DNA from: Sandaracinus sp.
GTDB lineage: Bacteria; Myxococcota_A; Polyangia; Polyangiales; Houyiibacteriaceae
NCBI GenBank assembly: GCA_002699025.1
Contig: PABA01000091.1
Location: 1-32,108, forward strand
Reading direction: 5' to 3'
Length of the DNA stretch: 32,108 bases
The position numbers and the translations under genes were made by a program. How positions within the stretch are numbered: position 1 is the first letter of the stretch; every line of letters starts with the position of its first letter. Shown here piece after piece: positions 3,720 through 32,108 of the stretch. The notes beneath the pieces were generated by a model. It was not told where the DNA came from, searched no databases, and was given only the letters and a program-made list of their open reading frames with translations.

Positions 3720-4228
3720 GCCGCGCTGCCCTCGCCCTCGCCCTCGCCCTGCTCGCCGGCTGCCTCGGCTCCACGCCCGACGAGGCCGAGGCGGAGGCGC
3801 TCGGCGACACGGACCACCACTTCGGCGGCGAGCCCGGCCCCCAGCACCGGCCGGGCCAGCCCTGCCTGCTCTGCCACGGTTTCCAGCTCGCCGGCACGGT
3901 CTACCGCTTCGCGGACGATCGCGCCGGCGTGCCGGGGGCGCGCGTCCACGTGATGGACGGCGAGGGCCGGAGCTTCACCGCGACGACCAACTCGAGCGGC
4001 AACTTCTACGTCACCCGCGGGGGCGAGCTGGAAGAGGACGACGACGGCGAAGTCGAGCTGCCCTACGCGCTCGCCTATCCGCTGGAGGTGGAGATCGAGC
4101 ACGAGGGCATCGCCCGTCCCATGCGCAGCCGGATCTGGCGCGAGGGGAGCTGTGCCCACTGCCACGGCCCGGAGGTCGGCCCCGACTCGGCCGGCCGGAT
4201 CGTCCTCGAAGACGGGAGCGCGCCGTGA
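3716..4228 (+). CDS. Lipoprotein with two CxxCH c-haem motifs
   Basis: 170 residues. The ATG at 3716 overlaps the preceding TGA and gives a lipoprotein signal (MSRAALALALALLAGC, Cys 16). Two c-type haem attachment motifs are visible: CLLCH at residues 50-54 and CAHCH at 146-150. Between them is a carboxypeptidase-regulatory/transthyretin-like segment (AGTVYRFADDRAGVPGARV, with TTNSSGNFYV) of the kind found in envelope proteins. It is likely a periplasmic, membrane-tethered di-haem protein, possibly passing electrons to or from the other products of this operon. The electron-transfer role is inferred from the motifs only. It overlaps the next gene by GTGA. Confidence 0.75.
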   Translation: MSRAALALALALLAGCLGSTPDEAEAEALGDTDHHFGGEPGPQHRPGQPCLLCHGFQLAGTVYRFADDRAGVPGARVHVMDGEGRSFTATTNSSGNFYVTRGGELEEDDDGEVELPYALAYPLEVEIEHEGIARPMRSRIWREGSCAHCHGPEVGPDSAGRIVLEDGSAP

Positions 4229-4716
4229 ACGCTCGCCTCACCCTCGCGCTGGCGTGCGCGGCCCTCGCCTGTGGCCCCGAGGTCGGCTCCGATCCCATGA
4301 GCGCGCCCGACGTCGGTCGCTACGACGCGCTCCACCCCTACCTCGAGGCGCGCTGCGCGACCCTCGACTGCCACGGGGACGCGGGCCGGCCGCTCCGCCT
4401 CTTCTCCGAGACGGGCCTCCGCGCGCCGGGGGTCGAGCGCGACGCCGAGCTCCAGCCTCAGGAGCGCATGGCCAACGCCTGGGCGCTCGTCGGCGTCGAT
4501 CCCGGCGCCGAGCCGGAGTCGCACCTCTCGGTGCTCAAGCCCCTCGCCGAGCAGGCCGGTGGCATGCATCACGTCGGCGAGGCGGTCTGGGCGAGCGTCG
4601 AGGATCCGGGCTATCGCTGCCTCCTCGGCTGGCTCCGCGAGGACGGCGACGCCGCCTGGGAGGGCGCCTGCGCCGCAGCGCGCGAGACCTGGTCGGTCCC
4701 GCCGCCCACGCCCTAG
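4225..4716 (+). CDS. Cytochrome c-like lipoprotein with a CX4CH motif
   Basis: 163 residues from a GTG start that overlaps the previous stop by 4 bp. The signal MNARLTLALACAALAC ends in a lipobox (Cys 16). The sequence CATLDCHG at residues 44-51 is a CX4CH haem-binding-type motif within a context seen in cytochrome-like domains of large-genome bacteria (start 'YLEARCATLDCHGDAGRPLRLF'-like, later a Met/His-rich stretch around residues 112-116). It is the last gene of the DUF4266-DUF3570-cytochrome operon. Whether haem is actually attached at a CX4CH site depends on the host maturation system. It could also be a non-haem Cys pair. Confidence 0.7.
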   Translation: MNARLTLALACAALACGPEVGSDPMSAPDVGRYDALHPYLEARCATLDCHGDAGRPLRLFSETGLRAPGVERDAELQPQERMANAWALVGVDPGAEPESHLSVLKPLAEQAGGMHHVGEAVWASVEDPGYRCLLGWLREDGDAAWEGACAAARETWSVPPPTP

Positions 4717-4734
4717 CAAGTCGAAGAGCCAGCG

Positions 4735-4767
4735 CCCGTGCCCGTGCCCCTGCCCCTGCCCCTGCCC
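4735..4767. repeat. (CCCSTG)n hexamer array, G-quadruplex motif on the minus strand
   Basis: Six C3-C4 tracts separated by gtg/ctg/tg spacers begin 18 bp after the stop of the cytochrome-like gene. The complementary strand reads as G-tracts with short loops, a canonical G-quadruplex pattern. It pairs with the opposite array at 4959-4995 across the convergent intergenic region. Confidence 0.85.
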
Positions 4768-4958
4768 GCGAAGGGCCGATCGAGGGTCGAGGGCACGCGA
4801 TCGCCGGTCATCGAACGCGGCCGGGCTGCGCGTCGTGCGTGTCCTCGCGAGCCGGGGCACGCATCGAAGCCGCGGCCCCGATGCCCGCGAACGGCGGATC
4901 ACTCACGCGCCTCCCGAGCATCGAAGGCGAGTGGCCAGCGCGTGGTGCTCGTCCTCCC

Positions 4959-4995
4959 GGGCACGGGCACGGGCACGGGCACGGGCACGGGCGGG
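4959..4995. repeat. (GGGCAC)n hexamer array, G-quadruplex motif on the plus strand
   Basis: Seven G3 tracts, mostly separated by CAC, end two bases before the stop codon (4998-5000) of the minus-strand barrel gene. This is a perfect G3N3 repeat, the inverted counterpart of the array at 4735. Confidence 0.9.
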
Positions 4996-4997
4996 CG

Positions 4998-5714
4998 CTA
5001 GAACATCGCCGCGTACGCGACCTCGACGCCGTAGAGCCAGTTCTCGTCGCGCACGTCCTCGCCCTCGAGGTCGATCAGGCTCGCGTGCGACCACTGCACG
5101 AAGAACGCGGGGCGGATCAGGCCGGAGCGGCCGATCAGCACGTCGAGGCCGACGCGCGGCTTGGTGACGAAGCCCCAGTCGCTGCCGTTGTAGAGCACGC
5201 CCGCGCCGACGCCGCCCATCACCAGCAAGCGATCGGTGAGCGGCGCGTGCACGCTCAGGTCGACGAGGGCCGTCATGGCGAAGCGCGTCTGCTGCCCCGT
5301 CTTGCCGCCGAAGATCTCGTTGACGTAGCTGAGCTGGAGCCCGTCGGCGAAGAACCAGCCGATGGCGGGGGCGAAGCGCGCCGTCACGAAGTCGCGGCCC
5401 TTCAGGAGGGCGCCGGAGCCGCCGACCTCGAGCACGCCCGCCGAGCCGTAGGCCGTGGGCCCGCCCACCCCGACCTGCTCGACGACGTCGAGCGCCGCGT
5501 CCCGCCGCTCGAGCACGCCGGGCACGGGCGGTGTCGGGTCCGGATCCGCCGTCTGGAGCGACTCGTCGTCGTCGTGGGCGGCCTCGTGCTCCTGGGCGAT
5601 CTCGTTCGGCGAGGACGCGCTCGGCGGCGCGGTGCCCCGCGGGTCGCGCTGCGCCGCGGCGGTCTGCGCGAGGAGCGGGAGGAGGAGGGCGAGGGAGAGC
5701 GTCGTGCGTGCCAC
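4998..5714 (-). CDS. Predicted outer membrane beta-barrel protein
   Basis: 238 residues from a GTG start. The signal peptide MARTTLSLALLLPLLAQTAAAQ is followed by an acidic, disordered linker to about residue 70. Then come alternating amphipathic strands with Gly/aromatic turns (GSGALLKGRDFVTARFAPAIGW, LLVMGGVGAGVLYNGSDWG, RPAFFVQWSH) and a C-terminal strand ending in Phe (YGVEVAYAAMF), the classical outer-membrane insertion signal. It resembles small 8-strand porin-like or OmpA-like barrels in general design, but no specific family is recognised. The stop is followed immediately by the hexamer array. It is not clearly in an operon: 249 bp separate it from the next minus-strand gene upstream. 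Confidence 0.75.
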   Translation of the reverse strand: MARTTLSLALLLPLLAQTAAAQRDPRGTAPPSASSPNEIAQEHEAAHDDDESLQTADPDPTPPVPGVLERRDAALDVVEQVGVGGPTAYGSAGVLEVGGSGALLKGRDFVTARFAPAIGWFFADGLQLSYVNEIFGGKTGQQTRFAMTALVDLSVHAPLTDRLLVMGGVGAGVLYNGSDWGFVTKPRVGLDVLIGRSGLIRPAFFVQWSHASLIDLEGEDVRDENWLYGVEVAYAAMF

Positions 5715-7969: not shown

Positions 7970-9201
7970 GGCGTCTCCTCGATGGGCAGCTCGAGCAGGA
8001 TAGCCGTCCCTTCGCCCGGCGCGCTCGCGATCTCGAGCGAGCCGCCGAGGAGCTCGGCCCGCTCGCGCATGCCGCGGAGCCCGTGGCCGCCCTCCTCGAC
8101 GGCCGCGGGGTCGAAGCCGACGCCGTCGTCGCGCACCTCGAGGCGCAGCCGCTCGCCGAGCGCGAGGCGCAGCTCGATCCGCTCGGCGTCGGCGTGGCGC
8201 TGCGCGTTGTGGAGCGCCTCCTGCGCGACCCGGTAGGTCGCCGTCTCGAGGGCCGGCGCGAGGTCGAGCTCCGCCGGGGCCTCGAGGCGCACGTCGAGGC
8301 CGCTGGTCTCGCCGAGGTCGTCGCAGAGGCGGGCGAGCGCGTCCCCGAGGCCGACCTCGTCGAGCACCGAGGGGCCGAGCACCTCGACGGCGCCGCGGAC
8401 CTCGTCGATGACCTGGTCGACGAGGGCGAGGGGGCGCTCGGCGGCGGCCTCGCGGGCGGCGAGGAGCTGGAGCTGGAGTCGGATCCCCGTGAGCACCTGA
8501 CCGACGCCGTCGTGGAGCTCGCGGCCGATGGAGCGGCGCTCGGCCTCCTGGAGGGCGACGGCGCGCGCGCTGAGCTCGCGGAGGCGCCGGTCCCGATCCT
8601 CGAGGTCGGCGACGCGATCGGCGACCTGCCCCTCGAGGTCGGCGTTGAGGGCCTCGAGCTCGCGCTGGGAGGCGCGGAGATCGTCGATGAGGTCGCGGAT
8701 GCGCTGCTCGGCGGCCCCGAGGGCCCGGCGCGGGAGGAGCCAGAGGACCCCCGCGAGCAGGAGCCCGAGCGCGAAGAAGGGGAGGGCGAGGCCGAGGGCG
8801 GCGCGGCGGGCGCTCGCGAGCCCGACGGCGACCCAGACCTCGCCCGCGTCGCCGAGGGCAGCGCGCTCCCAGACGTGCGCCGGGGGCGCCCGCCCCGAGT
8901 CGGCGACCGGCACGCGGCGGTCGTCGTAGACGCGCACGGCGGCGGCGGCGGGCTCGGGCCGGTAGCGCCGGAGGTGCTCGACGACCTTCGGCGAGTCGTA
9001 GCGCCAGAGGATGGGCCGACGGGCGGCCTCGTGACCGAGCGTGGCGGCGAGCTCGCGGGCCACGCCGGCGCCGCGCTCCCGGAGCTCGTCGACGCGCACG
9101 ACGTAGTAGGCCGTGGGCGCGCTCGCGCCGACCACCGCGACCAGGGCGACCAGCACCGGCAGGCTCCGCGCCGCGAGCGTTCGAGAGAGGCCGAGGGGCA
9201 T
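7966..9201 (-). CDS. NarL-family sensor histidine kinase
   Basis: 411 residues. Two membrane segments (about 12-34 and 136-156) flank a periplasmic region of about 100 residues that is not recognised as a named sensor domain. A coiled-coil linker follows (about 160-215), then a HisKA_3 dimerisation box with the phospho-acceptor His 230 (RRSIGRELHDGVGQ). The C-terminal HATPase_c domain shows the N-box (AQEALHNAQRHADA) and G-boxes (DDGVGFD, GGHGLRGMRERA, GEGTAILLELP). The family autophosphorylates on His and passes the phosphate to a LuxR-type regulator, here encoded directly downstream with a 4-bp overlap. The ATG at 9201 shares one base with the stop of the upstream binding-protein gene (TGATG), so all three are probably made together. 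Confidence 0.95.
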   Translation of the reverse strand: MPLGLSRTLAARSLPVLVALVAVVGASAPTAYYVVRVDELRERGAGVARELAATLGHEAARRPILWRYDSPKVVEHLRRYRPEPAAAAVRVYDDRRVPVADSGRAPPAHVWERAALGDAGEVWVAVGLASARRAALGLALPFFALGLLLAGVLWLLPRRALGAAEQRIRDLIDDLRASQRELEALNADLEGQVADRVADLEDRDRRLRELSARAVALQEAERRSIGRELHDGVGQVLTGIRLQLQLLAAREAAAERPLALVDQVIDEVRGAVEVLGPSVLDEVGLGDALARLCDDLGETSGLDVRLEAPAELDLAPALETATYRVAQEALHNAQRHADAERIELRLALGERLRLEVRDDGVGFDPAAVEEGGHGLRGMRERAELLGGSLEIASAPGEGTAILLELPIEETP

Positions 9202-10301
9202 CAGTCGCGCCCTCCCACAACCCGTGCCCGTGCCCCTGCCCCTGCCCGTGCCCGAGTCCCCTCTCGGTCCCGACCCCGTCCCGCTCGAGCTCCGGCCCCG
9301 GCGCCCGCTCCGGCTTCTGCACCGGCTCCGGCTTCTGCACCGGCTCCGGCTTCTGCACCGGCTCCCGCTTCGGCTCCAGCTCCCGCTTCGGCCCCAGCTC
9401 CCGCTCCCGCTTCGGCTCCCGCTCCCGCGTCTGCACCGTCTCCCGCGCCCACGGCGTCTCCCGCCGCGCCCCGCGCTCCCACGCCCTCGTACCCCGCCTC
9501 CACCACGATCCCCCGCGCCACCTCCCCCTCCAGGAACGCCATCCACCCGCTCGCCCGCGCGTCACCCGCCCGCGCCGCCGCGATCAGCGGCTTCGTCACC
9601 CGCGTCGCCAACGCCACCGCCTGCGCCCGCGCCCCCCGCAGCCGCAGCTGCGCCGCGTCCGTCAGCCCGATCGCCCCCTCGACCTCGTCGAGCGCCCGCA
9701 CCATCGCGCCGTCCGTGTAGAGCACCTCGAAGCGCTGCGCGCGCACGGCCGCGTCGTGGGCCTCCGCGGCGCGCGGCCAGGTCTCCCGGAGCGCCCGCAC
9801 CGACGAGTCCCCGAGCTCCCGGAGCAGCGGCACCACCCGTCCCGCCTCCCCGCGGTAGAGGCGTACGAGCTCCTCCTCGCCCCAGGGCTCGGCGCGCCTC
9901 GGCGCCCGCGCGTTCGCCGCCAGCACGACCCGGGCCCGCGCGTAGGTCACCGTGCGCAGCCCCTCTCGCTCCGCCTCGCTCGGTGGCCGGGAGAGCAGGG
10001 CCACGTCGATGGCCCCGTCCCGCAGCGCGCGCACGCCGCCGCCCGATCCGATCGAGCCGTGCACCCGCACGCGCTCCCCGGTCTCCGCCTCGAAGGCGGC
10101 GGCGAGCCGGCGCGTCAGCGGGAGGTTGCTGCCCGAGCCGGCGAGCTGGAGCGCTTCTCCCGCGCGCCCGACCGGCGGCGGCGAGGCGGGCGCCACCGGG
10201 GGCTCCGGGCCGGCCTCGGCGCGGCGCGCCAGCGCCCAGGACGCGCCGAGCACCGCGACGACGACCAGCCCCGAGGCGATGACGGTCCAGGAGAGGCGCA
10301 C
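9201..10301 (-). CDS. Membrane-anchored PstS-like substrate-binding protein with Ala/Gly-rich tail
   Basis: 366 residues from a GTG start. Residues 5-25 form an N-terminal membrane segment with no lipobox and no obvious cleavage site, so it is probably anchored. Residues about 50-277 match a type-2 periplasmic phosphate-binding fold: AGSGSNLPLTRRLAAAFEAETG at the start, GSIGSGGGVRALRDGAIDVALLSR as the ligand-loop region, then a later GWMAFLEG helix. Residues 278-366 are a repetitive Ala/Gly/Glu tail (EAGAGA units) turning Arg-rich at the end. The first base of the downstream kinase's ATG is the last base of this TGA. No PstCAB permease is encoded nearby, so a sensory role, presenting a ligand to the kinase, is more likely than transport. 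This is inference from gene order. Confidence 0.8.
   Translation of the reverse strand: MRLSWTVIASGLVVVAVLGASWALARRAEAGPEPPVAPASPPPVGRAGEALQLAGSGSNLPLTRRLAAAFEAETGERVRVHGSIGSGGGVRALRDGAIDVALLSRPPSEAEREGLRTVTYARARVVLAANARAPRRAEPWGEEELVRLYRGEAGRVVPLLRELGDSSVRALRETWPRAAEAHDAAVRAQRFEVLYTDGAMVRALDEVEGAIGLTDAAQLRLRGARAQAVALATRVTKPLIAAARAGDARASGWMAFLEGEVARGIVVEAGYEGVGARGAAGDAVGAGDGADAGAGAEAGAGAGAEAGAGAEAGAGAEAGAGAEAGAGAEAGAGAGAGARAGRGRDREGTRARAGAGARARVVGGRD
9221..9253. repeat. Hexamer array (CCCSTG)n inside the 3' end of the binding-protein gene
   Basis: Six C3-C4 tracts with short spacers on the plus strand give a G-quadruplex motif on the coding (minus) strand, about 18 bp before the stop codon. 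In frame it encodes RARAGAGARAR. It is the same repeat type as those at 4735, 4959 and 14122. Confidence 0.8.
9307..9426. repeat. 18-bp tandem repeats encoding the EAGAGA tail
   Basis: The unit gctccggcttctgcaccg is exact at 9307-9324, 9325-9342 and 9343-9360 and then decays into cggctcccgctt-type copies to about 9426. On the minus strand it encodes EAGAGA hexapeptides of the binding protein's tail. Confidence 0.85.
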
Positions 10302-14052: not shown

Positions 14053-14322
14053 GGGGAGGGGGAGTAGCAGGCCGAAGCGCGCGAAGCGAGCCCCGGCCGA
14101 AGCCCGCGAAGCGGGCGACGGCCCCCCTGCCCCTGCCCCTGCCCGTGCCCGTGCCCGCAGATCGGAATGGAGAACGACGGGGAGCGAGAGGAGCTCGAGC
14201 CCGAGCGATGAGCGCAGCCCGAGCGAGAGCCCATGCCCGAGCGAGAGCCCCCAGCTCCAGCCCGAACACTCCAGTCCAAGCCCCAGCTCCAGCCCGAGCC
14301 CCGAGCGCGAGCGGAGGGCCGC
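14053..14322. repeat. Intergenic repeat island
   Basis: Between the small lipoprotein gene and the methyltransferase gene the DNA is made of short degenerate repeats: gccgaag/gcgaagc units near 14071-14115, the hexamer array at 14122-14157, cccgagcgagagccc at 14218-14232 and again 14236-14250, and ccccagctccagcccga at 14249-14265 and 14281-14297. No gene is supported here. Confidence 0.7.
14122..14157. repeat. Hexamer array (CCCSTG)n, G-quadruplex motif on the minus strand
   Basis: Six C3-C6 tracts separated by tg/gtg spacers on the plus strand. The minus strand reads GGGCAC/GGGGCA repeats, a canonical G-quadruplex pattern, in the intergenic space downstream of the minus-strand lipoprotein gene and upstream of the methyltransferase. 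Confidence 0.85.
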
Positions 14323-30516: not shown

Positions 30517-32108
30517 GTGCCGTGGCTCTACCGCGTCGCGCGCCGTGTGTTCCGGCGCGCCGTCGACTTCTACTTCCTGGACGTGCAGGTCGCCGGCGCG
30601 GAGAACGTGCCGCGCGAGGGGGCCGTGCTCTTCGCGGCGAACCACCCGAACTCGATCCTCGACACGCTCGTGCTCGGCTCGCAGGTGCCGCGACCGATCC
30701 ACTTCCTGGCCCGGAGCGGGCTCTTCGCGAACCCGGCGGTGGGGTTCCTCCTACGCGGCGCCGGGGCCATCCCGGTCTACCGGCGGCAGGACGGCCCGGC
30801 GCGGCCCGGCGGGAACGAGGACGCCTTCGCGGCCGCGTGGGAGGTGCTCGGCGAGGGGGACGTGATCGGCATCTTCCCCGAGGGCCGGAACGCGCCCGTG
30901 CGCCACGTGCGGGACATCAAGACCGGCGTGGCGCGCATCGCCCTCGGGGCGGAGGCGGCGGGCGCGGCCGCGGGCGTGAAGGTGGTGCCGGTCGGGCTGA
31001 ACTACGAGGAGCGGGACCGCTTCCTCACGCGCGTGCTGGTGCGCTTCGGGAAGCCGATCGCGGCGGCGGAGTGGGCCGAGGCGCATGCGGAGGACCCGCG
31101 GGCGGCGGCGCGGGCGATGACCGAGCGCATCCAGGAGGCGATGCGCGAGCAGGCGGTGCACGTGCACGACGAGGAGCGGACACAGCTCCTGCACGACGTG
31201 GACGCGCTGGTGGGCGAGGAGCTGCAGGCCGAGCTCGTGGGGCAGGTGGATCTGCGCACCTTCGACGAGAAGCTCCTGCAGCGGGTGACGGGGCGCGGCG
31301 AGGAGCGGGAGGATCTCGACGGGCGCTTCAAGGTGCGCCAGTGGATCGCGGACGCGATCGCGTGGTTCGAGCGGGAGGAGCCGGAGACGCTGCGGCGGCT
31401 CGAGCGCGGCATCGATCGCTACAGCGATCACCTCGCGCAGCTACGGCTCAGGGCCGACTTCGCGGAGCGGCCGGCGAGGACCGTGTCGAAGCGGCGGGCG
31501 GCGATCGGGCTGAGCCTCTATGCGGCGCTGCTCGCGCCGGTGGCCGTGTGGGGGCTGGCGCACAACTTCGTGCCGTACCGGGTGACGCGGCGGTACGCGC
31601 TGGGGGCGCCGGAGGAGGCGATCCGGGGGATCCGCGCGGTGGTCGGCGGGGCGGGCTTCTTCGGGTTGGCGTACGCGCTCTACGGGTCGGCGGTGTGGGC
31701 GGGGACCGGGTCGTGGGTGGCGCTGACGCTCTATCTGATGAGCCTGCCGATCGCGGGCGTGTGGTTTCTGCGGTACGCGCAGCGGCTGGCGAAGTACGCG
31801 GACCGGATCCTGCTGCGGACGCTGTTCCAGACGCGGCGGAGGCTGCTGCGGCGGCTCTTGATCGAGCGGGAGCAGCTGCTGGTGCAGATCGACGCGATGA
31901 AGAGGACGTACCTCGAGCACGTGCGGGGAGGGGCGACCGGAGGCGGGGAGCGGGCGGAAGCCGGTCGAGCACCCGCCGGAGCGGAAGCCGCAGCCCGAGC
32001 CGAAGCGCCAGCCGGAGCATCAGCCCAAGCCGGAGCATCAGCCCAAGCCGGAGCATCAGCCCAAGCCGGAGCATCAGCCCAAGCCGGAGCATCAGCCCAA
32101 GCCGGAGC
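30517..32108 (+). CDS. PlsC-like lysophospholipid acyltransferase (partial, runs off right edge)
   Basis: The frame is open from the GTG at 30517 (a TGA at 30508-30510 rules out an earlier start) to the window end, at least 530 residues. Residues about 25-215 form a PlsC acyltransferase domain: NHPNSILD at 42-49 (the active-site H43 and D49), RSGLFANPAVGFLLRGAGAIPVYRR, FPEGRNAPV at 120-128, and KVVPVGLNYEERDRF. It probably moves an acyl group onto glycerol-phosphate-type or related lipids at the inner membrane. Residues about 325-425 hold two or three membrane segments, followed by a charged helix (LLRTLFQTRRRLLRRLLIEREQ) and, from about 469, an Ala/Gly-rich tail ending in AGASAQ repeats. The tail is unusual for the family. 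Confidence 0.88.
   Translation, partial: MPWLYRVARRVFRRAVDFYFLDVQVAGAENVPREGAVLFAANHPNSILDTLVLGSQVPRPIHFLARSGLFANPAVGFLLRGAGAIPVYRRQDGPARPGGNEDAFAAAWEVLGEGDVIGIFPEGRNAPVRHVRDIKTGVARIALGAEAAGAAAGVKVVPVGLNYEERDRFLTRVLVRFGKPIAAAEWAEAHAEDPRAAARAMTERIQEAMREQAVHVHDEERTQLLHDVDALVGEELQAELVGQVDLRTFDEKLLQRVTGRGEEREDLDGRFKVRQWIADAIAWFEREEPETLRRLERGIDRYSDHLAQLRLRADFAERPARTVSKRRAAIGLSLYAALLAPVAVWGLAHNFVPYRVTRRYALGAPEEAIRGIRAVVGGAGFFGLAYALYGSAVWAGTGSWVALTLYLMSLPIAGVWFLRYAQRLAKYADRILLRTLFQTRRRLLRRLLIEREQLLVQIDAMKRTYLEHVRGGATGGGERAEAGRAPAGAEAAARAEAPAGASAQAGASAQAGASAQAGASAQAGASAQAG
32011..32108 (+). repeat. 18-bp tandem repeats at the right edge, coding AGASAQ
   Basis: gccggagcatcagcccaa is repeated five times exactly (32011-32100) and a sixth copy is cut by the window edge. 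It is in frame with the acyltransferase gene. The full array length is outside the window. Confidence 0.95.

Follow-up and report, generated by a model that had tools for sequence, protein, structure and literature searches.

A strand-oriented, length-controlled 33-bp hexamer repeat at gene ends in a Sandaracinus genome without detectable Rho: a candidate transcription boundary

How do two genes that run toward each other end their transcripts when the gap between them holds a pair of complementary hexamer arrays and no U-tract terminator? We address this question for the window, a stretch of 32,108 nucleotides that makes up contig PABA01000091.1 (C102) of Sandaracinus sp. The plus-strand gene (4225..4716; 163 amino acids) ends with a TAG at 4714-4716, and the minus-strand gene (4998..5714; 238 amino acids) with a TAG that reads CTA at 4998-5000; neither has a Pfam or NCBIfam family. 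The 281-bp gap contains GCCCGTGCCCGTGCCCCTGCCCCTGCCCCTGCCC at 4734-4767 and CGGGCACGGG...GGGC at 4958-4992. The facing arrays recognized in the initial annotation are real: one element is present here in two inverted copies. Each copy is C-rich when read in the direction of its adjacent gene: the first (4735..4767, plus strand) in that of the plus-strand gene, the second (4959..4991, minus strand) in that of the minus-strand gene. A spacer of approximately 190 nt (4768..4958) separates them. Both consist of exactly five units plus CCC (33 bp), a detail absent from the initial annotation, and their variable letters read G,G,C,C,C and G,G,G,G,G, respectively. The CCCGTG repeats do begin 18 nt past the stop of the plus-strand gene, whereas the distance on the other side, given earlier as 2 bp, is 5-6 nt (array 4958-4992, core 4959-4991).

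The two arms form a 36-position inverted repeat with three mismatches and a 189-nt loop. The RNA of the 281-nt gap is predicted to fold with -177.5 kcal/mol in the plus and -184 kcal/mol in the minus direction (z approximately -5.7 against shuffles). This is not the short-loop, G+C-rich hairpin followed by a U tract that characterizes an intrinsic terminator: the loop is 189 nt long, and no U-tract terminator-like site was detected between 4600 and 5100, in agreement with the initial annotation. Rfam covariance models gave no match up to E = 1 in 4400-5300.

The element is dispersed over the genome. The assembly comprises 9.24 Mb in 238 contigs (4% missing), and the sampled sequence has 73.6% G+C. 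In a 2.62-Mb sample, with genes called by a codon-usage model, we find 189 copies of the consensus (CCCNTG)5CCC, exactly 33 bp, with at most four mismatches over its 28 fixed positions; 136 of them are perfect. A Markov genome of order 4 and equal size contains no copy at this threshold, and 70 tandem arrays in 1.57 Mb of real sequence compare with none in a Markov genome of order 5. In the window itself there are 16 overlapping matches to the hexamer core, against 0.02 expected per window by shuffling. A control with the reversed pattern is invalid for pure GGGCAC arrays, because a reversed pure hexamer array is an identical array. Since part of the 2.62-Mb sample was picked for the presence of arrays, we draw on it for position and orientation but derive no absolute frequencies from it. 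Contigs taken solely by number, 1.0 Mb in total, contain 21 loosely defined elements; long contigs are probably poor in elements, because several assembly breaks fall at arrays. Two further copies in the window are also exactly five units plus CCC. The third (9221..9253, plus strand) lies in a gap within a run of minus-strand genes, where a PBP-like ORF has a repeat-rich 3' end; the copy is either close to this end or part of it. The fourth (14124..14156, plus strand) lies in a gap between tandem minus-strand genes, 71 nt upstream of the next start. Both are G-rich in the sense of those genes.

Both the length and the sequence of the element are constrained. Counts for two to seven units are 59, 41, 35, 131, 8 and 2, and under another definition of unit number, five units occur in 146 copies, six in nine and seven in two. 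Across 113 independent loci, departures from the majority letter amount to 33% at N, against 1.9% at the fixed positions. Mismatches are about equally rare in the T and G loop letters (3-4%) and in the C tracts (2%). The flanks are partly conserved, with an A-rich stretch before the element and GC(A/G)GG after it. The smooth fall of length with unit number that a neutral microsatellite should show is not seen; a maximum at five units, together with variability that is private to N, rules out neutral slippage as a full account.

We are interested in where these copies lie relative to genes. Among intergenic gaps of at least 60 nt in the 2.62-Mb sample, 44 of 236 convergent, 51 of 735 tandem and six of 303 divergent gaps bear the element (convergent versus divergent, p-value = 1E-11), so the enrichment between convergent genes expected by the initial annotation is borne out. 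Its view that each outgoing transcript meets a C-rich copy first also holds: the copy nearest a stop codon has its C-rich strand in sense in 85 of 87 cases (85:2), and most of these copies start 3-48 nt past the stop. Within tandem gaps the two orientations are equally frequent, and G-sense copies lie a median of 64 nt from the next start, against 162 nt at random (p-value = 0.0004). With C-sense copies past stops and G-sense copies near the next starts, the C-rich strand points outward at both ends of genes. The same rule in tandem gaps means that the element is not specific to convergent genes. Where neighbouring copies have opposite orientation, the C copy precedes the G copy in 30 of 31 cases, in ten of ten such pairs among the matches listed for relatives, and in six of seven in named genomes, where a looser search found arrays mainly in Myxococcota and in some Actinobacteria (an exact search of the named genomes for the flanked motif gave no match). 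The culturable relative Sorangium cellulosum So0157-2 carries at least one array. On the contigs, 220 overlapping matches lie on the forward and 250 on the reverse strand; the element is tied to gene orientation, not to one chromosome strand. The same repeat thus sits at many gene ends, nearly always in the same orientation, which suggests that it is probably a directional transcription boundary. It is not the general terminator of this genome, for few gene ends carry it (among contigs taken by number, it is present in five of the 102 convergent gaps).

The initial annotation had placed the point of the design in its symmetry, with an inverted pair giving one long RNA stem in either transcript. 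Such a stem could act as a bidirectional hairpin terminator or as a protector of 3' ends. The stable fold described above is in favour of this, as is the finding that long-loop inverted repeats scoring at least 14 are present in convergent and tandem gaps but absent from divergent gaps. Pairs of other sequence with the same geometry exist as well (GTGCTC at C22:55080; TCCGC heptamers), and gaps tend to contain C and G copies together (p-value approximately 1E-7, in a sample partly selected for arrays). However, a C-then-G pair is present in only 16 of 45 convergent and 13 of 59 tandem array-bearing gaps, and in none of the few occupied gaps of the contigs fetched by number. Nor does a permutation support co-evolution of the arms, which match no better within a locus (24.4) than between loci (23.6; p-value = 0.07). 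The loops of approximately 70-300 nt are long for a terminator, the U tract is absent, and the 30:1 order of C before G is unneeded, as a pair with the G-rich arm first would fold equally well. What the occupied gaps have in common is a single copy that points outward. With pairs in a minority of these gaps, arms that match no better within loci and a stem indifferent to arm order, pairing appears to be a by-product or an optional extra. The long stem therefore survives as a possible structure and fails as a common feature, most occupied gaps having a single orientation, and we consider it doubtful that the stem is what the element is for.

A C-rich, weakly structured RNA just past a stop codon (-0.7 kcal/mol for the core) is what one would look for in a Rho loading (rut) site, with transcripts ending 100-300 nt downstream, and six C tracts would suit a hexamer. 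However, the RNA-binding domain of Rho (PF07497) is absent from the window's genome, where TIGR00767 gives only weak matches to ATPase paralogues; one of these, on examination, is a type III secretion ATPase. Only one of 37 close relatives has Rho above the cut-off, and among the order members of the phylum sample a full Rho is found only in G027, G050 and G071 (relatives numbered G001-G143). Most genomes of other classes in the phylum pass the cut-off, with 640-730 bits. An assembly gap is an unlikely reason, because Rho is missing in many genomes, one of which is complete in a single contig. The equal frequency of G-sense and C-sense copies in tandem gaps also speaks against Rho loading. With Rho not found in the genome or in most of the order, the rut reading is close to refuted and we regard it as highly improbable. 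Across the phylum, at least ten matches to the array occur in seven of 47 genomes without Rho and in one of 140 with Rho (hand count, p-value = 3E-4), a link between Rho loss and array abundance that is suggestive only, because phylogeny and GC content confound it. As Rho was not found in the genome and the gap has no U-tract terminator, transcripts would have to end here by another route.

Could the element simply be a dispersed repeat without a job, minisatellite-like and driven by slippage or recombination, that is tolerated at the 3' ends of genes and purged from promoters? This is the main rival. Many gaps hold two to five copies, 65-90 nt apart, with spacers that are similar within a locus and dissimilar across loci. 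Between tandem copies of one locus, N differs at 39% of sites and the spacers at 11%, so that the cores have been reshuffled by slippage or conversion while their other letters stayed fixed; such exchange clearly happens within tandem copies. The arrays are patchy across the order, where they are often pure or longer, and the orthologues of the 4998..5714 gene in relatives end without an array, which excludes a conserved locus and counts against a boundary function as well. Tolerance alone would also yield the depletion in divergent gaps. It leaves unexplained, however, why the strand rule is 85:2, why unit number stays near five, why 28 positions are nearly invariant beside a free N, and why two unrelated repeats tend to a similar rule (see below). 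The simplest reading of the 28 fixed positions is purifying selection; biased homogenisation is a possible alternative, and recombination among copies may be partly behind the conservation of the element. We judge a repeat without a job to be possible but rather unlikely.

Two kinds of dispersed bacterial repeats resemble the element in part. REP sequences and BIMEs are small extragenic elements that favour the 3' ends of genes and often form inverted pairs. In contrast to those that go with RAYT transposases, the 33-bp element is not a palindrome, and the Y1 transposase domain (PF01797) is absent from the window's genome, which rules out a REP/RAYT identity. The MIRU-VNTR minisatellites of mycobacteria are tandem intergenic modules of approximately 50-100 bp; here, genome-wide sharing is limited to the 33-bp core, and the spacers are private to each locus.

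A sequence-specific protein might also bind the hexamers, as DNA or as RNA, for another purpose, e.g., chromosome organisation or mRNA stability. Conservation of both TG and CCC beside a free N is as expected of a recognition motif, and some units (GGGCAGGG) presumably match the KOPS consensus, which we count in favour of this possibility. On the other side, no candidate protein was identified, and the element follows the orientation of genes rather than one strand of the chromosome; we think such a role improbable.

We return to the directional boundary. From its rules of sequence, length, position and orientation, it is tempting to hypothesize that the element is a polar transcription-boundary element, a tentative assignment in which our confidence is somewhat short of even. 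A polymerase that exits a gene, either past the stop codon or backwards from the 5' side, would read a template strand that contains six GGG tracts, and its RNA would be C-rich. It might then pause and be released at the element, through the G tracts of the template or through a protein bound to the repeat. Facing copies between convergent genes would give a boundary in both directions, and a long RNA stem, as an optional extra, could trim or protect 3' ends. The bias among gap types, the C-sense copies past stops, the G-sense copies close to the next starts, the preference for five units, the contrast between fixed positions and N, and the lack of both Rho in the genome and a U-tract terminator in the gap all argue for such a boundary. 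Against it are the small fraction of gene ends that bear the element, a conservation that may partly stem from recombination among copies, the array-free orthologous gene ends, and the case of Xanthomonas, whose similar repeats are of opposite polarity and lack a proven function (PMC4692102). A mechanism through quadruplexes only would not require T and G to be nearly as conserved as the C tracts.

Other repeats in this genome tend to the same rule. TCCGCNB, another family of imperfect 7-nt repeats scattered over the genome (approximately 101 copies in 2.62 Mb; e.g., C5:58535, C22:30460 and C49:44057), and a GTGCTC family (16 copies) both tend to be more frequent in convergent and tandem than in divergent gaps, with the C-sense copy nearest the stop; their C-then-G pairs number 4:0 and 2:0, respectively. 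This common tendency favours a boundary function, and as the two families have no GGG tracts, it also speaks against quadruplexes as the only mechanism.

The closest precedent is the GGGAATC heptamer repeat of Xanthomonas campestris and X. axonopodis, for which no function has been established (Rehm et al. 2015, PMC4692102). It prefers four units, forms 70-75 inverted pairs per genome, is mostly intergenic at approximately 28 nt from the preceding ORF, and is under-represented in divergent gaps; transcripts start or stop more often at quadruplex-capable repeats (PMC4692102). Both systems have G/C-rich tandem units of 6-7 nt with free positions, lie mostly in intergenic regions near a stop codon, form inverted pairs, favour convergent over divergent gaps, prefer one unit number, and have been linked by proposal to transcript ends. 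Each copy contains six GGG tracts separated by 3-nt spacers, and in this respect the element is a repeat of the Xanthomonas type (tandem G-rich units of 6-9 nt with at least four GGG tracts). They differ in the unit (hexamer CCCNTG here, heptamer there), in number (five units plus a sixth tract versus four units), in the conserved flanks found here, and in polarity: downstream of ORFs the coding-sense strand is C-rich here and G-rich in Xanthomonas. The genome studied here also lacks a detectable Rho, and several unrelated repeats in it tend to one rule. The heptanucleotide repeats GGGGA(C/T)T of Nostoc and other cyanobacteria (PMC4692102) are likewise short, tandem and dispersed between genes in genomes without Rho, where most transcript ends lack the features of intrinsic terminators (PMC13289151). 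However, those genomes have a much lower G+C content, the unit is different, and few inverted pairs have been reported.

The wider question is how transcription ends in bacteria that are very GC-rich and have no Rho, and a strand-oriented, length-controlled repeat offers a concrete, testable candidate. For a tandem repeat in bacteria, both the 85:2 strand rule and the separation of invariant from free positions are exceptionally clear-cut, which argues against writing off such arrays as neutral microsatellites. A polarity that mirrors that of Xanthomonas constrains any model based on G-quadruplexes. A bolder proposal is that, in a large lineage without Rho, the 33-bp sequence-specific repeat, together with unrelated repeats of the same layout, would form a directional, U-tract-free boundary that insulates genes at both ends, a class of terminator not described before; we advance this with considerable doubt.

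Several other repeats deserve mention. In the relative G030, pure CCCGTT/CCCGTC arrays lie on many contigs, often at contig ends, which suggests that a different hexamer fills the same niche there. At C22:55080-55383 (L102) there is a near-perfect inverted CGTGCT/CGAGCA pair (score 34, loop 109 nt) that has no GGG tracts, yet shows the same layout past a stop codon. Another convergent gap, at C8:55827-56422 (L087), holds an imperfect inverted repeat of 111 positions (score 45, loop 346), which is not made up of arrayed hexamers. In the window, the 3' end of the ORF with the PBP-like domain crosses approximately 280 bp of GCTCCN and CCCNTG repeats (9201-9485); this gene may have extended into an intergenic block of repeats or may have arisen from one. 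Finally, a perfect 18-nt tandem repeat of 5.5 copies (32010-32108) reaches the end of the contig.
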